DNA of 43,093 bases from an uncultured Actinomycetes bacterium (GTDB lineage Bacteria; Actinomycetota; Acidimicrobiia; Acidimicrobiales; RAAP-2): assembly GCA_903825765.1 (NCBI GenBank), contig CAIKBU010000054.1, positions 1 through 43,093 on the forward strand. Reading direction: 5' to 3'. Shown here piece after piece: positions 1-22,424 of this stretch (position 1 is its first letter; every line of letters starts with the position of its first letter). Made by a program: the position numbers and the translations under genes. Below the pieces are notes generated by a model. It had not been told where the DNA came from and made no database searches. It worked only from the letters and a program-made list of their open reading frames with translations.

Positions 1-1308
1 CGATTCCGTGAGGCGTGGGACGCCCTCAACGTCAGCTACGACGACTTCATTCGCACAACCGAGCCCCGTCATCGCGAAACCGTGCAGAAGTTTCTGACCG
101 CGGTCTACGAAAACGGCTACATCTACAAAGACACCTATAGCGGCCTCTACTGCGTGAGTTGTGAGGACTACTTCACTGTTGAAGCCTCCGATGAAGGCAA
201 GTGCCCAATTCACGGTCGCGCCTTGACCGAGATGGAGGAAGAGAACTGGTTCTTTCGCCTCAGTGCATTTGAAGATCGCCTCCTCGAGTTCTACGACGCC
301 AATCCTGAATTTGTCACCCCGCACACCAAGTTCAATGAAGCACGCGCCTTCATCAAGGGTGGCCTGCGCGATATTTCGATTACGCGTAGTTCCATTGACT
401 GGGGCATCACCGTTCCCTGGGACACGAAACACGTCTTTTATGTCTGGTACGACGCTCTCATCAATTACTTGACTGCAATTGGCTACGGCCGCGACGACGA
501 CGAAGTTGCTGACTGGTGGCCGGTGTCGCACCACCTCATCGGAAAAGAAATCATCCGCTTTCACTGTGTCTGGTGGCCGGCCATGTGCATGGCCGCCGGT
601 ATTGATCCAGTCAGCCACGTCCAGGTCCACGGCTGGCTACTCGTGGGTGGTCAAAAGCTCTCGAAGACCATGGCCGCCGAGGGTGGCGTCCGCCTGACTG
701 ATATTTCTCCCGTGTCGCTGACGAATGAGTTTGGCGTTGACCCTGTTCGCTACTACCTCCTACGCGAGACCGCCTTGGGAAATGATGGTGATTTTTCACT
801 CGAGGGAATCGCCGCGCGTTACAACACCGATCTGGCCAACAACCTCGGTAACCTCGTGGCCCGCGTCAGCACCATCGTGGCGGGCAAGTGCGATGGCGTT
901 GGGCCGCGCCCCGAAGCCGACGCGACCCTCCGTGAGGCCGCGGAGACGGCGGTTGCGGCGACGACAGCGGCGTGGGACCGCTTCGCCCCGCACCACGCGC
1001 TGGAGGCCACCTGGGGACTTATCGGTGCCACCAATGCGTACCTCGAACAGACGGCGCCGTGGAAACTGCCCGCCGGCGACGAGTTGCGAGCAGTGTTGGG
1101 CAACGCGCTCGAGGCGATTCGAATTGTCACCGTTCTCGCGTCACCGGCAATGCCACAGGTGTGCGACACCATTTGGCTTCGGATCGGCTTGACCGGTGGA
1201 CCCACCGACGTGAACGTCGCGACGAGCACCGTCTGGGGTCAATATGAGCCGGTTAACGCCATTGAGAAGGGTGAGCCCCTTTTCCCACGGATAAAGGCCG
1301 ACGCGTGA
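1..1308 (+). CDS. metG: Methionyl-tRNA synthetase, 5' end outside window
   Basis: Charges tRNA-Met with methionine in the cytoplasm. The frame is open from the first base, and the residues before the first in-frame ATG/GTG (ALNVSYDDFIRTTEPRH) are typical MetG, so the gene is cut by the window edge and lacks its N-terminal HIGH motif. Visible features are a zinc knuckle remnant (YCVSCEDYF then KCPIHG), the conserved WFFRL segment, the catalytic-core stretch DWGITVPWD, and GGQKLSKT, a KLSKT variant of the KMSKS loop. An alpha-helical anticodon-binding domain follows, with NNLGNLVARV and the ending APWKL region. The stop overlaps the GTG of tatD by four bases (GTGA), so the two are translationally coupled. 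The metG-tatD order is widespread in Gram-positive bacteria. Confidence 0.97.
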   Translation, partial: RFREAWDALNVSYDDFIRTTEPRHRETVQKFLTAVYENGYIYKDTYSGLYCVSCEDYFTVEASDEGKCPIHGRALTEMEEENWFFRLSAFEDRLLEFYDANPEFVTPHTKFNEARAFIKGGLRDISITRSSIDWGITVPWDTKHVFYVWYDALINYLTAIGYGRDDDEVADWWPVSHHLIGKEIIRFHCVWWPAMCMAAGIDPVSHVQVHGWLLVGGQKLSKTMAAEGGVRLTDISPVSLTNEFGVDPVRYYLLRETALGNDGDFSLEGIAARYNTDLANNLGNLVARVSTIVAGKCDGVGPRPEADATLREAAETAVAATTAAWDRFAPHHALEATWGLIGATNAYLEQTAPWKLPAGDELRAVLGNALEAIRIVTVLASPAMPQVCDTIWLRIGLTGGPTDVNVATSTVWGQYEPVNAIEKGEPLFPRIKADA

Positions 1309-2093
1309 GTTTTTGGACTGACGCGCACTGTCACCTTCAGGACCAGTATCTGCGGGACTGGAAGGCAGAAGGCGACGCTCGAGACGCCCTCACCCGGGCG
1401 CGAGCCGCGCAAGTCAATCGCATTGTCGTGATTGGCACTGACGCCGCTTCGTCTGGCGAAGCGCTCGCCATTACGGATCTGTCTGGTGACGTGGAGCTCT
1501 TCGCCACGGTAGGACTGCACCCACACCAGGCCACTGAAGACCTCGCTCCAATCGCCGCTTTGGCCCGTGAGGGGCACGCTCGGCTCGTGGGGATTGGTGA
1601 ATGCGGTCTCGATTACTACTACGAACACGCACCACGAGGCGATCAGCGACGGGCCTTCGCCGCCCAGATTGCCCTGGCCATCGAACTTGACTTGGCGCTC
1701 GTGGTGCACGCTCGCGACGCCTTCGACGACCTCTTCGACGTTTTCGCCAGCGAGGGCGTTCCCCCGCGAACCGTGATTCACTGTTTCACCGGCACCCCGG
1801 ATGAGGCCGAAGGTTGTCTCGAACGGGGCTGCGATATTTCGTTGTCCGGTGTGGTGACCTTCAAAAATGCGCAATTGCTCCGCGATGCGGCCCGCATTGT
1901 GCCGCTCGACCGACTGCACGTCGAGACTGATGCGCCATTCCTCGCCCCGGTGCCACATCGCGGGCGAGCGAACGAACCGGCCTACGTGTCATTGGTGGGC
2001 GCATTCGTCGCCGAACTTCGCGGTGAGGACGTCGCCGTAGTTCGGGCGGCCACGGCGGCGAATACCGCCCGCCTCTTTGCGCTCCCAGTTTGA
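1305..2093 (+). CDS. tatD: TatD family metal-dependent deoxyribonuclease
   Basis: Predicted metal-dependent DNase of the amidohydrolase superfamily (262 aa, normal length). All ligand motifs are visible: DAHCHLQD at the N-terminus (HxH), GECGLDYYYE (metal-bridging Glu), VVHARDAFDD (His), VIHCFTGTPDEA (His) and VETDAPFLAP (Asp). It starts with GTG in a GTGA overlap with metG. Downstream comes the PASTA/RlpA-like gene and then ksgA, the place rpfB or yabE takes in other Gram-positives. The gene ends in TGA just before an AT-rich hairpin region. The family assignment is firm; the cellular substrate is not known from sequence. Confidence 0.95.
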   Translation: MSFWTDAHCHLQDQYLRDWKAEGDARDALTRARAAQVNRIVVIGTDAASSGEALAITDLSGDVELFATVGLHPHQATEDLAPIAALAREGHARLVGIGECGLDYYYEHAPRGDQRRAFAAQIALAIELDLALVVHARDAFDDLFDVFASEGVPPRTVIHCFTGTPDEAEGCLERGCDISLSGVVTFKNAQLLRDAARIVPLDRLHVETDAPFLAPVPHRGRANEPAYVSLVGAFVAELRGEDVAVVRAATAANTARLFALPV

Positions 2094-2217
2094 TAAATAG
2101 TATTTCATCAGGTATTTATAAAATACTAAGAAGTTTTTCTGTCTTTTTTGACTCATACTGCGTAGCGTTGTGGAGTCGGCCGATGCCGCTGGCGCACCAT
2201 CGTGAAGGGGTCGCAAC
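2094..2217. other. AT-rich intergenic region with hairpin and T-tracts
   Basis: This is the longest gene-free stretch in the window. Its first 60 bases are strikingly AT-rich against G+C-rich surroundings. It holds the hairpin listed separately at 2111-2127, two T-runs (2134-2138 and 2144-2149) and a TTGACT at 2149-2154 that might serve as a -35 element, although no convincing -10 lies at the right spacing. A good Shine-Dalgarno (GAAGGGG) lies seven bases before the GTG at 2218. I looked for a long structured leader such as a c-di-AMP riboswitch and do not see one; the space is too short. Confidence 0.6.
2111..2149 (+). terminator. Possible weak intrinsic terminator after tatD
   Basis: GTATTT (2112-2117) pairs perfectly with AAATAC (2121-2126) around a three-base ATA loop, with a G-T wobble extending it by one pair. 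A second, longer pairing (AGTATTT at 2099-2105 with AAATACT at 2121-2127) is mutually exclusive with it. T-rich sequence follows from 2134. The stem is all A-T but for one pair, so it is weak; it may end the metG-tatD transcript or act as a protein-binding palindrome. Confidence 0.35.
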
Positions 2218-3111
2218 GTGTCGCGTAAAAGTCGCCCACACAAACAATCTGCGGGAGTCACGGTGCTGAGCATCGTCGCTTTGACGTTCAGTACCTTCGT
2301 GTCGCCTCTCGTCGCGGCAGCCGCCCCCGCCACGGAAACCCTGCCGAATCTCGTGGGCGAGTCACACACGCAGGCCTACGCCACCTTAAAGGCGGACCAC
2401 CTGTACTTCGCAACGTCGGGACCGGGATCGTCAACCAGCTCGTGGACTCGGGTGGTCGGCCAGCTGCCCGCCGCGGGCACGGTGGTGCAACTCTTCTCGA
2501 CCATTCACCTTGACGTCACCACCGCTCCCGTGACGCCGGTGCGCCACGTTGCGCACCATAAGGTACCAACGCCTCACCACGTCGCCCCGCGACCGGTACT
2601 GGCACCAATGGCCGACGTCCGAGGGCAGGGTCAGGCCTTTACTAAATGGGTTGTCCGCCACCGGAGATTCCGTCTGGTGGTACTGCGTATTGGACCAGCC
2701 GCGGGACAGTGGAACGACGTGCTCGCGCAGCACCCCGCCCCCGGTGTTCGCGTGGCACCGGGCGCACAGCTGATCATTACGGTCCAACGAGTCGTTCCCG
2801 CACCCATCGGACAAAAGACCGTCCCGCACGTCGCACCGATAAAAAAGCAAGTACCGCACGTCGTTCGGCACCTTGCACTGGTGGGTCAAGCCACCTGGTA
2901 TCCCAACACACCGGGAAAGTGCGCCTCGCACTATCTCCACCGAGGTGTCAAAGTGTGGGTACGCAATCTGCAAACCGGTCGTACGATTACCTGCGTGATT
3001 AATGACCGAGAAGCATCCGGCGGCCTGCGGGTGGTCGACCTCAGTTCGTACGATTTTTCAGTCCTCGCCCCACTCGCTCGTGGTGTCATACCTGTCAGAG
3101 TGTGGTGGTGA
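2218..3111 (+). CDS. Secreted protein with two PASTA domains and an RlpA-like barrel
   Basis: 297 aa exported protein. A basic start, then a hydrophobic stretch (about residues 13-40, ending LVAAAAPATE) looks like a signal peptide. Residues about 42-100 (LPNLVGESHTQAYATLKADH onward) and about 133-192 (MADVRGQGQAFTKWVV onward, ending LIITVQRV) read as PASTA domains, which bind peptidoglycan or muropeptides. They are separated by a His/Pro-rich linker. The C-terminus from about 222 (GQATWYPN, CASHYL, ITCVINDREASG, VVDLSSYDF, PVRVWW) reads as a double-psi beta-barrel like that of RlpA and of 3D domains. The GTG start has a GAAGGGG ribosome site. It lies between tatD and ksgA, where mycobacteria have rpfB and Bacillus has yabE. 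A role in cell-wall remodelling is inferred; no Rpf lysozyme-like domain or G5 domain is visible. Confidence 0.82.
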   Translation: MSRKSRPHKQSAGVTVLSIVALTFSTFVSPLVAAAAPATETLPNLVGESHTQAYATLKADHLYFATSGPGSSTSSWTRVVGQLPAAGTVVQLFSTIHLDVTTAPVTPVRHVAHHKVPTPHHVAPRPVLAPMADVRGQGQAFTKWVVRHRRFRLVVLRIGPAAGQWNDVLAQHPAPGVRVAPGAQLIITVQRVVPAPIGQKTVPHVAPIKKQVPHVVRHLALVGQATWYPNTPGKCASHYLHRGVKVWVRNLQTGRTITCVINDREASGGLRVVDLSSYDFSVLAPLARGVIPVRVWW

Positions 3112-3923
3112 CTCATTCGCGTACGTCCCTCGGGGACCTTCTTACTCAGTACTCACTCAAGCCGTCTCGAGCACTCGGGCAGAACTTCGTCGTTGACCCG
3201 AATACGGTTCGTCGGATCGCCCGCCTCGCCAATGTCGCCGAGGGCGATTTTGTCCTCGAGATTGGCCCCGGACTCGGGTCCTTGACGCTGGCCCTCGTCG
3301 AGACGGGAGCCACGGTTGAAGCAATTGAAATTGACAAGTATCTCCTCGAGCCACTTCGTTCAGTAGTCGAACCACACGGGGTCATCGTGCACCACGCTGA
3401 TGCACTGGTCGCCGACTACGAGTCGATCTTGGCCGGTCGCGACACCGTCGTTGTCGCGAATCTCCCGTACAACGTCGCGACCCCGCTGGTGCTCCACTTG
3501 CTCGAAACCGTGCCCTCTATCAAGCGCTTACTCGTGATGGTTCAAAAGGAAGTGGGCGAGCGTTTCGCGGCATACGCGGGTGACGAGGCGTATGGTGCGG
3601 TGTCACTTCGGGTCCAATACTTCGCTGATGCCACGGTGGTGGGAAAGGTCAGCCCCAACGTGTTTATCCCTAAGCCCAAGGTTGACTCCGCGCTCGTTTC
3701 GCTGGTGCGCCGCCCCGAAGTGCGGATTGATCCGGCTCTGGTGTCAGAGGCCGAGCTTTTTACCGTGGTGCGCACCGCGTTCGCGCAACGACGCAAGATG
3801 CTGCGCCGTTCGCTGCACGACTGGGTGACTGAGGGCGTCTTCGAGCGCGCCGACGTCGCCGAAACCCGTCGCCCCGAAGAGCTCACGCTCGAGGAGTTCG
3901 CCCGACTCGCGGCGGCCAAATAG
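3108..3923 (+). CDS. rsmA: 16S rRNA dimethyladenosine transferase (KsgA/RsmA)
   Basis: Uses S-adenosylmethionine to dimethylate the two adjacent adenines in the 3' terminal hairpin of 16S rRNA during small-subunit maturation. Motifs: LGQNFVVDPN near the N-terminus, VLEIGPGLGSLT (SAM motif I), EIDKYL (acidic end of strand 2), VVANLPYNVATPL (NLPY catalytic motif) and MVQKEVGERFAA. The length of 271 aa is normal. Three consecutive GTG codons lie at 3102, 3105 and 3108; I take 3108 because it makes the GTGA overlap seen repeatedly in this window. It is followed by ispE in a one-base overlap (TAGTG), the common ksgA-ispE pair. Confidence 0.96.
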   Translation: MTHSRTSLGDLLTQYSLKPSRALGQNFVVDPNTVRRIARLANVAEGDFVLEIGPGLGSLTLALVETGATVEAIEIDKYLLEPLRSVVEPHGVIVHHADALVADYESILAGRDTVVVANLPYNVATPLVLHLLETVPSIKRLLVMVQKEVGERFAAYAGDEAYGAVSLRVQYFADATVVGKVSPNVFIPKPKVDSALVSLVRRPEVRIDPALVSEAELFTVVRTAFAQRRKMLRRSLHDWVTEGVFERADVAETRRPEELTLEEFARLAAAK

Positions 3924-4666
3924 TGCTCGCACCCGCCAAATTGACGTGGTACCTCGAGGTAACCGGTGTTCGCGCGAACGGCTACCACGAGCTACGCAGT
4001 GAGATGACCACACTCGGGCTGGCCGATGAACTCCTCATTGATCCTGCGGGGGACTCCTTGACCATCCTGGATGGTCCGTCCGTGCCCCTCAATGAGACGA
4101 ATCTGATTGCGCGCGCGCTCGCCGTGCTCAATCGGCGAGCCGGTGTGGTGTTGACGAAACGGATTCCCGTTGGTGGAGGCCTCGGTGGTGGGAGCGCCGA
4201 CGCCGCGGCCATCTTGCGCTGGGGTGGCGGCGTGGCCGATGGTGTGGCCCTGCAGCTCGGTGGGGACGTGCCGTTCTGTCAGCGCGGTGGCCGCGCTCTG
4301 GTCACTGGCGTGGGGGAGTTCATTGAACCGCTCCCACCGCTCGTCCGTGACGTGACGTTGTTTTTGCCGCCCTTTTCACTCGCCACTCCCGCGGTCTACC
4401 GCGCCTATGACGAATTGGTGGCGTCAGGACAGCGACCCAGTGGGCGTAATCACTTAGAGATTCCCGCCAGAACCGTGGAACCGCGGCTGGACGCTGTGAT
4501 GGCGTGGGCTAACGCGACCTTTGGTCCGGTGCACTTAGCTGGTTCAGGTTCGACATTCTTCCTCGAAGGCCACGTGCAACGTGGTGTCTCGACCTGGGAC
4601 GTTGAGAGTCCGGTCGGTACGGTTCAAGTAGTGCAAACACAGACAACGCCCGAGGGGCGTTGCTAA
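3923..4666 (+). CDS. ispE: 4-diphosphocytidyl-2-C-methyl-D-erythritol kinase
   Basis: Phosphorylates CDP-methylerythritol in the non-mevalonate (MEP) route to isoprenoid precursors. GHMP-kinase features: APAKLTWYLEVTGVRANGYHEL at the start with the catalytic-site Lys, VGGGLGGGSADAAAIL (ATP glycine loop), LGGDVPFC (catalytic Asp) and AGSGSTFFL near the C-terminus. At 247 aa it is shorter than the usual 280-300. The helix between the glycine loop and LGGDVPF is about a dozen residues short, and the C-terminus is also trimmed, but all key motifs remain, so I expect it to be active. The GTG start overlaps the ksgA stop. Its TAA directly abuts the stop of the convergent bS22 gene. Confidence 0.93.
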   Translation: MLAPAKLTWYLEVTGVRANGYHELRSEMTTLGLADELLIDPAGDSLTILDGPSVPLNETNLIARALAVLNRRAGVVLTKRIPVGGGLGGGSADAAAILRWGGGVADGVALQLGGDVPFCQRGGRALVTGVGEFIEPLPPLVRDVTLFLPPFSLATPAVYRAYDELVASGQRPSGRNHLEIPARTVEPRLDAVMAWANATFGPVHLAGSGSTFFLEGHVQRGVSTWDVESPVGTVQVVQTQTTPEGRC

Positions 4667-21251: not shown

Positions 21252-22424
21252 TTAGGGGCGAGCGACCCCAATAAATCCCGCACCAAAGTAGGGCGCGAGA
21301 GCGATAGGTATACCGGTACGCGCGGCGGCGATGGTGGTACTTGTTCCCCACGGTCCCGATCCTGCGTACATGACGACGTGGTCGACTTGGTTATCACCGT
21401 CGAGGTTAAAGTAGTAAATCAAATCACCGGGGCGAATGTTGCTAAAGGAGACGTGGGGGAGTGCGGCCCACTGCTCTTGCGTCGTGCGTGGAATCGACAC
21501 GCCGGCCTTTTGCCAGGCCCACTGAACTAGTCCGGAACAATCGAAGCCAACACCGGGAGTAGTGCCGCCCCAGACGTAGGGGACTCCAATTTGCGATTCG
21601 GCCGCCCGCAACGCGGCTGATCCCTGCACCGATGGTGGTACTTGGTGAATTGGCGGCGGTGGCGTGTTGATGCGAATTGCCTCAATAACTTGATTGGCGG
21701 CGGCCTGACCGCCAATCTGACTCGCCGCGTTGACGGCTTGCTCTTCCGCGGCGATATCGCGTGCTTTTGCCGCCTTGCCGCCCTGGCGCACTTCGTAGGC
21801 GATGAACTGTGCTTTTTCGTTCGCGAGCTGGTTTGACACTTGGTTGAGGGTGTTCTGCGCCGCCTGCTCGGCTTGCAAATTCGCGCTCAGCAGTGACTGG
21901 AGGTGCTCACTTTGCAGCTTGGCCTGGTGACGCTGGTAGGTGACGGCCCGAATGCTGCGATAGAGCGATGCTCGCTCGCGGAGCAGCGTGAGGCGTTCTT
22001 GGTTGATGTTGCCAATGGCGAAATCCCCGAAGATTGTTCGGGCATCACTGGAGGTCACGTTCTGATTGAACAAGGCCACGACTTGTGTTCCGGCCGTGGT
22101 AGCGACGTAGGCGTGGACGAGGTCGACCACCATGCGGGCTTTGGTTTTCGCAATTTGCGTGCGCTTGAGGCGGATCTTTTTCTGAAGCGTCGCGATGTGA
22201 TCGGAGAGTTGACCAAAGACACTCAAGGCGGCGTCGTAGGCGTTTGCCGAACGTTCGCTGGCCTGCGTGAGGGCGCTTAATTTCGCCGAAATCACCTGTA
22301 ATTCGGCTTGTGACTGACGAATGGTGGTGATCGACGCCTGCGACGTGGCCGGGGCCATGATCGAGAGGGCGAGACTCAGCGATACGAGTGCCGACAGGCG
22401 ACGAGGGGTTCGCAGCGGAGCCAT
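21252..22424 (-). CDS. Secreted NlpC/P60 peptidoglycan endopeptidase with coiled coil
   Basis: 390 aa. Signal peptide MAPLRTPRRLSALVSLSLAL onward, with cleavage likely near TSQAS (about 30). Residues about 35-110 and 145-230 form long Gln/Ala-rich coiled coils, then a Pro linker (NTPPPPIHQVPP). The NlpC/P60 domain from about 272 has IGVPYVWGGTTPGVGFDCSG (catalytic Cys about 296), RPGDLIYY and QVDHVVMYAG (His about 349). It resembles mycobacterial RipA/RipC-type and Rv2190c-type cell-wall hydrolases, which cleave stem peptides during division. The coiled coil usually keeps such enzymes under control by an activator. It has a TAGGCT -10 six bases before the ATG. Confidence 0.93.
   Translation of the reverse strand: MAPLRTPRRLSALVSLSLALSIMAPATSQASITTIRQSQAELQVISAKLSALTQASERSANAYDAALSVFGQLSDHIATLQKKIRLKRTQIAKTKARMVVDLVHAYVATTAGTQVVALFNQNVTSSDARTIFGDFAIGNINQERLTLLRERASLYRSIRAVTYQRHQAKLQSEHLQSLLSANLQAEQAAQNTLNQVSNQLANEKAQFIAYEVRQGGKAAKARDIAAEEQAVNAASQIGGQAAANQVIEAIRINTPPPPIHQVPPSVQGSAALRAAESQIGVPYVWGGTTPGVGFDCSGLVQWAWQKAGVSIPRTTQEQWAALPHVSFSNIRPGDLIYYFNLDGDNQVDHVVMYAGSGPWGTSTTIAAARTGIPIALAPYFGAGFIGVARP

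Follow-up and report, generated by a model that had tools for sequence, protein, structure and literature searches.

Gene X and its domains

The window, i.e., the whole stretch of 43,093 nucleotides that was analysed, carries a metG fragment and tatD, followed by the gene under study (gene X), ksgA and ispE (Table 1). The open reading frames (ORFs) and Pfam matches confirmed this gene order, which had been given in the initial annotation. The ORF list gives GTG as the start codon of X, and the start of ksgA is one of three GTG codons (3102, 3105 or 3108). A match to X was found in 36/36 same-genus relatives. Of 29 relative loci fetched, 28 show the order tatD-X-ksgA-ispE, and the remaining one starts at a contig end ahead of X. 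Because X was matched in all same-genus relatives and the gene order was kept, X is not a chance reading frame; close relatives retain the locus. In named assemblies, 45 X loci were found, with ksgA present in all 45 and tatD in 44. Their record titles name Acidimicrobiaceae or Acidimicrobiales in 30 cases, and 18 loci carry peat-type isolate labels (palsa, bog, fen). Four loci (L220, L226, L227 and L241) have titles that say Acidobacteria or Candidatus Saccharibacteria and carry tatD-X-ksgA (X-ksgA in L227); these are probably mislabelled bins.

Table 1. Positions of the features discussed, in the window unless another locus is named.
Feature	Positions	Strand or place	Basis
metG fragment	82-1308	upstream of tatD	ORF and Pfam
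tatD, upstream border of the slot	1305-2093	+	ORF; Pfam TatD_DNase 2.5e-70
Promoter-like pair: CTGTCT (2139-2144), 18 nt, TAGCGT (2163-2168)	2139-2168	+	inferred
Shine-Dalgarno-like AAGGGG, 7 nt 5' of the X start	2205-2210	+	read from the sequence
Gene X, PASTA-PASTA-DPBB protein of 297 aa with an N-terminal hydrophobic segment	2218-3111	+	ORF list, Pfam, AlphaFold2, fold alignment
PASTA 1, residues 42-101	2341-2520	+	Pfam, genus profile (85 bits), structure
PASTA 2, residues 136-189, diverged	2623-2784	+	genus PASTA profile (42 bits)
DPBB, residues 220-297	2875-3108	+	Pfam, AlphaFold2, fold alignment
D263 of the X DPBB	3004-3006	+	conservation analysis
D274 of the X DPBB	3037-3039	+	conservation analysis
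ksgA	3102-3923	+	ORF; Pfam RrnaAD 8.4e-51
GTGA, formed by the final base of the X Trp codon and the X stop; overlaps a GTG in frame with ksgA	3108-3111	+	read in family loci
ispE, following gene in the putative operon	3923-4666	+	ORF; GHMP kinase match; order kept in relatives
NlpC/P60 protein whose N-terminal part resembles a coiled coil (by eye like PcsB/RipA)	21252-22424	-	domain match and ORF
Small Rpf-domain protein, 180 aa, N-terminal hydrophobic stretch	L199 1613-2155 (G000:C37)	+	Rpf domain match
Kinase-like ORF of the window's genome	L273 1467-3269 (G000:C49)	-	PASTA profile

The computed domain assignment revealed two PASTA stretches and a C-terminal double-psi beta-barrel (DPBB). 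The Pfam PASTA profile matched X with 35.5 bits against a cut-off of 23.2. PASTA 1 alone was above the cut-off (25.4 bits) and was modelled by AlphaFold2 with a pLDDT of 95-97. The PASTA 2 segment, when tested alone, reached 17.7 bits, which is under the Pfam cut-off, and its pLDDT was moderate (74-84 in blocks of ten). DPBB_1 scored 26.9 bits in the Pfam scan, just short of the cut-off of 28.8, and 29 bits in the whole-genome search, which is above it; the pLDDT of this domain was 85-97, and it contains two cysteines (C235 and C259). Upon fold alignment with VIA-align, the X DPBB matched PA4485 (4avr) with a Z-score of 13.6 and an rmsd of 1.5, and residues 38-103 matched a PASTA domain of PBP1 with a Z-score of 10.1. 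Overall, the folds of X matched the PASTA domains of PknB and the PBPs and the RlpA-like PA4485, and the next-best matches of the DPBB were expansins, a loosenin and a papain inhibitor. The two PASTA-like domains and the two-cysteine barrel described in the initial annotation were therefore borne out by profiles and structure alike, the genus profile included.

No Pfam match at E<=1 was found in X for Rpf (PF06737), G5, DUF348 or 3D (PF06725), which was consistent with the earlier description of X as a protein without Rpf or G5; the same Pfam library does detect 3D in five slot proteins of other families. The X DPBB has the fold and both presumed active-site Asp in common with RlpA/PA4485. In contrast, no SPOR domain was matched in X by Pfam, the RlpA His is absent, and the NCBIfam rlpA model (TIGR00413) gave 17.8 bits, far below its cut-off of 82.15. 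Matches to PET-hydrolase and cutinase, the fold of which we take to be other than that of this region of X, spanned the border of linker and DPBB and were judged to be due to chance. The N-terminal hydrophobic stretch is present, as annotated earlier; the signal peptide was judged from this stretch alone, and the segment would carry X across the membrane.

Contents of the slot between tatD and ksgA

In the order, ksgA was sought in 148 genomes, of which 136 were classified by the stretch upstream of ksgA with profiles built from slot proteins. The 12 others comprised eight with only fragment ksgA matches and four that were not fetched; among the latter, coordinates place a DPBB match (G083) and an Rpf match (G092) beside ksgA. 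The computed slot classes of the 136 genomes were no gene in 53 (defined as a tatD-ksgA gap of <250 nt), DPBB in 36 (including four degenerate rows of family f7), Rpf in 34, other in nine and unassigned in four. When ten proteins of each type were checked with Pfam, Rpf was above the cut-off in nine Rpf-type proteins, the tenth (G062) being SLT-type, and DPBB_1 was above the cut-off in eight DPBB-type proteins. On a tree of tatD and ksgA (129 of the 136 rows, each with at least 250 residues; 355 columns), the minimum number of switches between Rpf and DPBB was five, a rough count as 50 of the 126 inner branches are open. Of the 31 Rpf rows placed on this tree, 28 fall in one starred group of 58 rows, alongside three DPBB rows. 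The order is thus a mosaic, and the consistent replacement in one class that the initial annotation named as support for its claim was not seen.

Some slot contents were unusual. The slot DPBBs of f7 (L048, L056, L059 and L187) have lost D274 in 4/4, with D263 kept in one; by its residues, this DPBB looks like a dead enzyme still retained in the slot. In three f58 loci (L116, L162 and L184), the slot gap is 362-422 nt and no Rpf or DPBB was found in it. In L116, the reading frame encodes nothing beyond an export-like segment and a linker, resembling a slot gene minus its catalytic end. Two Rpf domains were observed in the slot region of L109, L158, L114 and L183 (f51, f56), on one chain in L109.

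That the tatD-ksgA slot has exchangeable catalytic ends was described earlier, with Rpf and Sps/3D as the alternatives (Ravagnani 2005, PMC1084345); the reason why a wall enzyme adjoins ksgA in so many Gram-positive bacteria was there called not obvious. The initial annotation had proposed that the position is reserved for a wall enzyme or sensor while the domains change. The exchange of domains held, as already published; the slot is empty in 53/136 order genomes. The idea of a slot is right; that RpfB was replaced is probably incorrect in the case of this lineage.

Outside the order, 59 of 119 genomes of the phylum sample were examined, and their slots contained no gene in 20, DPBB in nine, Rpf in nine and other genes in six, with 15 left unassigned. 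Pfam scans of 20 phylum ORFs gave eight DPBB, two Rpf, five 3D and five other genes (three metG, one BacA and one FMN reductase). Their architectures were DUF348-G5-Rpf in two, DUF348-G5-3D in four and 3D alone in one; the DPBB proteins were DUF348-G5-DPBB_1 in 6/8 and PcsB-coiled-coil-DPBB_1 in 2/8. In 5/6 of the DUF348-G5-DPBB_1 loci outside the order, tatD lies upstream. The window tatD had no match in G281, G185, G201, G280 and G253, where the gene is placed only as lying before ksgA. A DUF348-G5-DPBB_1 protein lies between tatD and ksgA in L294 (G199), which belongs to the same class as the window and to another order. The DUF348-G5-DPBB architecture is also that of PPA2239, a secreted protein of P. 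acnes (PMC3224659).

In the DPBB tree (94 columns; the data do not root it), 42 order slot DPBBs, eight slot DPBBs from outside the order and four non-slot domains were separated from 16 non-slot RlpA domains with support of 100/100, the non-slot RlpA domains numbering 20 in all. The Cys pair was found in 34/34 family proteins and in 27/27 slot DPBBs of other families of the order (the degenerate f7 apart), and outside the order in 1/8, namely the same-class protein by sequence. Since the slot DPBBs group apart from 16/20 non-slot RlpA domains and the same-class protein has the Cys pair, the window DPBB most likely came down by descent together with the slot. G5 was computed to be present in 0/148 order genomes, with B. 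subtilis and C. glutamicum detected as positive controls, so that the accessory part seems to have been lost in the order. The ancestor would have been a DUF348-G5-DPBB slot protein, from which DUF348 and G5 would then have been lost. The slot DUF348-G5-DPBB_1 proteins likewise precede ksgA, and their DPBB lies on the same side of the tree as that of X; in contrast, the X family has lost the His and, where those proteins have DUF348-G5, carries PASTA or a plain linker, and the Cys pair is common only to the same-class protein.

Comparison with the known slot proteins revealed further differences. The 3D domain is a double-psi barrel. YabE/SpsB of firmicutes (DUF348-G5-3D) shares the slot with X and has an Asp pair 11 residues apart (numbers from the related YuiC, PMC4499186), whereas X has an RlpA-type DPBB_1 rather than 3D, lacks G5 and DUF348, and has no rnmV between itself and ksgA. 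RpfB (DUF348-G5-Rpf) has in common with X the slot, presumed export and a presumed muralytic C-terminal domain, and an overlap with ksgA was reported there too (PMC6009663). In contrast, X contains DPBB and PASTA instead of Rpf, G5 and DUF348.

The N-termini of the Rpf-type and DPBB-type slot proteins were compared, omitting rows that contained masked letters or lacked a distinct hydrophobic stretch. The Rpf-type profile scored a mean of 8.5 bits on DPBB-type N-termini versus 2.4 for shuffles, and 15/35 beat at least 48 of 50 shuffles; conversely, the DPBB-type profile scored a mean of 7.6 versus 2.3 on Rpf-type N-termini (13/30). Seven non-slot Rpf proteins gave means of 7.7 bits with the Rpf-type profile and 3.4 with the DPBB-type profile. 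Because non-slot Rpf proteins reach 7.7 bits with the Rpf-type profile, the similarity may reflect what export signals in general have in common.

X had also been suggested to be a functional replacement of Rpf, a view that the genome does not support. A separate Rpf-domain protein is encoded elsewhere in it (Table 1), so X is not the sole candidate for Rpf work, and Rpf matches were found in 25/41 family genomes searched, the window's own included. This protein is not an RpfB with full G5 and Rpf domains, as no G5 was found in the genome. Its gene lies directly 5' of one that, by eye, resembles a gene for a pyruvate dehydrogenase E1 alpha subunit.

PASTA repeats and a kinase-like protein of the genus

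The number of PASTA repeats in 34 family proteins was zero in three (G061 from another genus, and G110 and G146 from the window's genus), one in three, two in 20, three in five and four in three. At least one repeat was present in 42/45 X proteins of named assemblies. On the genus tree, PASTA presence is explained by one change (on a branch with weak bootstrap support, 36/97), and we infer that the repeats were gained in one genus.

Among the 148 order genomes, the genus PASTA profile reached at least 57 bits only in four same-genus genomes, where the matches were X (G000 and G178) and a kinase-like protein of approximately 600 aa (all four, including G110 and G146). Any match to this profile was found in 43/148 genomes, the best outside the genus being 33 bits. 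Sixteen kinase-like ORFs of the genus were fetched, that of the window's genome (Table 1) and 15 others (in L274-L277 and L280-L290); each contains one or two PASTAs at 54-90 bits, the others being below 27. An intact HRDxKPxN motif was found in 0/16 of these ORFs and in both canonical PknB-like ORFs. The Asp is kept by eye in at least two kinase-like ORFs, the stretch was not located by pattern in four, and some ORFs are partial. In the copy from the window's genome, the usual Lys and DFG are also missing by eye.

In the PASTA tree (64 columns, midpoint-rooted, with 50/105 inner branches open), the X PASTAs and the high-scoring kinase-like PASTAs fall on one side with an SH-aLRT support of 99. 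Computation shows the X PASTAs to be a subtype common to the kinase-like protein of the genus. The direction of transfer is read in two ways: the kinase-like form is present in G110 and G146, whose X is without PASTA, which points to a kinase-like donor, and in the midpoint-rooted tree the high-scoring kinase-like PASTAs are nested among those of X, which points in the opposite direction. With the PASTA kinases (PknB) and the PBPs, X shares the PASTA fold and the Pfam match, and the subtype is common to the kinase-like protein; in contrast, no kinase or transpeptidase domain was matched in X by Pfam (kinase families at E<=1). In PknB, such domains bind muropeptides and are required for mid-cell placement (PMC3145798).

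We tentatively suggest that X and the kinase-like protein without an intact HRDxKPxN motif might be partners that recognise one wall ligand via a single PASTA subtype, the module having passed between them. In that case, a pathway that senses the wall would control the wall enzyme or run alongside it, and translation would connect the enzyme to the dimethylation of 16S rRNA. If this were true, the slot would act as a plug-in socket, in which the catalytic domain (Rpf, 3D or DPBB) and the wall-reading domain (DUF348-G5, PcsB coiled coil, PASTA or none) are exchanged independently beside ksgA.

Proposed activity of X and its possible link with ksgA

Conservation was computed for the DPBB, and D263 and D274 were found to be invariant in 34/34 family proteins and in 45/45 proteins of named assemblies. 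PA4485 retains both Asp in the profile alignment. The TAAH motif of RlpA contains a His that has a role in these proteins. At this position, the family has Thr, Ser or Ala in 34/34; the His is present in 20/27 slot DPBBs of other families and in 4/20 non-slot RlpA domains of the order, and since it is mostly missing from non-slot RlpA too, its loss in the family is hard to read. P. aeruginosa RlpA needs an Asp that E. coli RlpA has lost (PMC9712689). The spacing of D263 and D274 is 11 residues, the same as that of D151/D162 in YuiC and D297/D308 in MltA, in which the second Asp of the pair is catalytic (PMC4499186). Because both Asp are invariant yet the RlpA His is absent in 34/34, activity of the X DPBB as an enzyme is likely but not certain.

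The stop of X and the start of ksgA overlap as GTGA in 33/34 family loci. This overlap is less common beyond the family: it was found in 13/36 of all DPBB rows and in 3/34 Rpf rows, six further Rpf rows having an in-frame CTGA at the same place, outside the GTGA count. TAGCGT is present before X in 33/34 family loci, with TTGCCN 17 nt ahead of it in 24, these being raw counts. The window's own -35 element, CTGTCT, agrees with TTGACA at 3/6 positions, and a generic promoter scan upstream of X found none. Because the GTGA overlap and TAGCGT are each kept in 33/34 loci, X, ksgA and ispE probably form a separate operon. In M. tuberculosis, rpfB-ksgA-ispE are co-transcribed (PMC6009663). A search of the window with Rfam revealed two tRNAs and nothing else, and the consensus fold of the X leader contained one weak hairpin near the coding start, for which the column-shuffle control was uninformative.

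Taken together, X is likely a wall enzyme with PASTA targeting that is probably co-expressed with ksgA. In full, we propose, with a probability of roughly 0.6, that X is an exported, PASTA-targeted wall enzyme of the slot that is translated with ksgA, its DPBB being inherited and its PASTA repeats gained. The PASTA repeats (zero to four in the family, two here) would bind peptidoglycan fragments or precursors at sites where the wall is remade, and the RlpA/MltA-type DPBB would cut glycan strands, D274 likely serving as the acid/base and D263 likely helping to bind the sugar. Translation of X together with ksgA would let wall opening and 30S maturation rise jointly at the start of growth. The link of wall growth to ksgA put forward in the initial annotation is made likelier by the GTGA overlap in 33/34 loci, and the purpose of this coupling is our reading of it.

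Alternatively, the X DPBB may open the wall for an NlpC/P60 endopeptidase. In B. subtilis, RlpA-like proteins, YabE among them, assist LytE, an NlpC/P60 enzyme (PMC10653849), NlpC/P60 matches in the genome number two, and the NlpC/P60 protein of the window (Table 1) is a candidate partner of X. In its strict form, this explanation holds that the DPBB no longer cuts and that X is a PASTA-bound, expansin- or activator-like wall loosener, to which the missing His and the expansins and loosenin among the best folds also point. We consider it unlikely, as both presumed active-site Asp are invariant in the two protein sets, the seemingly dead slot DPBB of f7 has by contrast lost D274 in 4/4, and non-slot RlpA of the order is mostly without the His as well. 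A role as a secreted protease inhibitor akin to the Streptomyces papain inhibitor was suggested by a profile match to 5ntb (2.7e-7) and a weak Papain_Inhib match (21.4 bits). The latter is far below the NCBIfam cut-off of 150, the PA4485 fold fits better (Z-score of 13.6 versus 10.3), and the slot and wall-binding repeats suit a wall role, which renders an inhibitor highly improbable.

Regarding ancestry, the initial annotation had X replacing rpfB, which would mean that an RlpA gene was recruited in the lineage and displaced rpfB. Exchanges of this kind happened in the order, as shown by the at least five switches on the order tree, and Rpf fills the slot in 34/136 genomes (the SLT-type G062 among them). 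However, DUF348-G5-DPBB precedes ksgA in the same class and elsewhere, and the slot DPBBs side with those proteins and not with 16/20 non-slot RlpA domains; displacement of rpfB in this lineage is accordingly improbable, although less so than the inhibitor role. Inheritance of the DPBB with the slot is preferred. A further explanation concerns the gene order, which may be merely inherited, X being functionally unrelated to ksgA, with the overlap reflecting compaction of a 1.75 Mb genome. The 53/136 order genomes in which tatD and ksgA are still adjacent without a slot gene would fit this explanation, as would the promoter-like element that parts X from tatD, whereas the persistence of the slot through exchanges of the catalytic domain and the near fixation of the in-frame GTGA in the family speak against it. 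We regard mere inheritance as possible, though less probable than a functional tie between X and ksgA.

Among the matches listed for the open-access literature, none described a PASTA-DPBB protein next to ksgA. As far as the searches show, the PASTA-DPBB form, its genus-level origin and the kinship of its PASTAs to those of the kinase-like protein are new, as is the charting of slot states (Rpf, DPBB or empty) across a single order. Within this order, the slot is empty or holds Rpf or DPBB, with at least five switches on a rough tree, and in one genus the wall-reading part was freshly exchanged. This constitutes a natural experiment, in which a wall protein beside ksgA is kept and the catalytic fold and binding module are free to change. 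The residues, the presumed ligand-binding module and the kinase-like partner are now named and can be tested.

A minor observation concerns the region preceding X. The leader in the genus (e.g., L027 and L017) contains a recurrent GGAGGGTGGAGATCTGAGG; the X frame of many relatives suggests a CTG start 8 nt after GGAGG, where the window has GTG.
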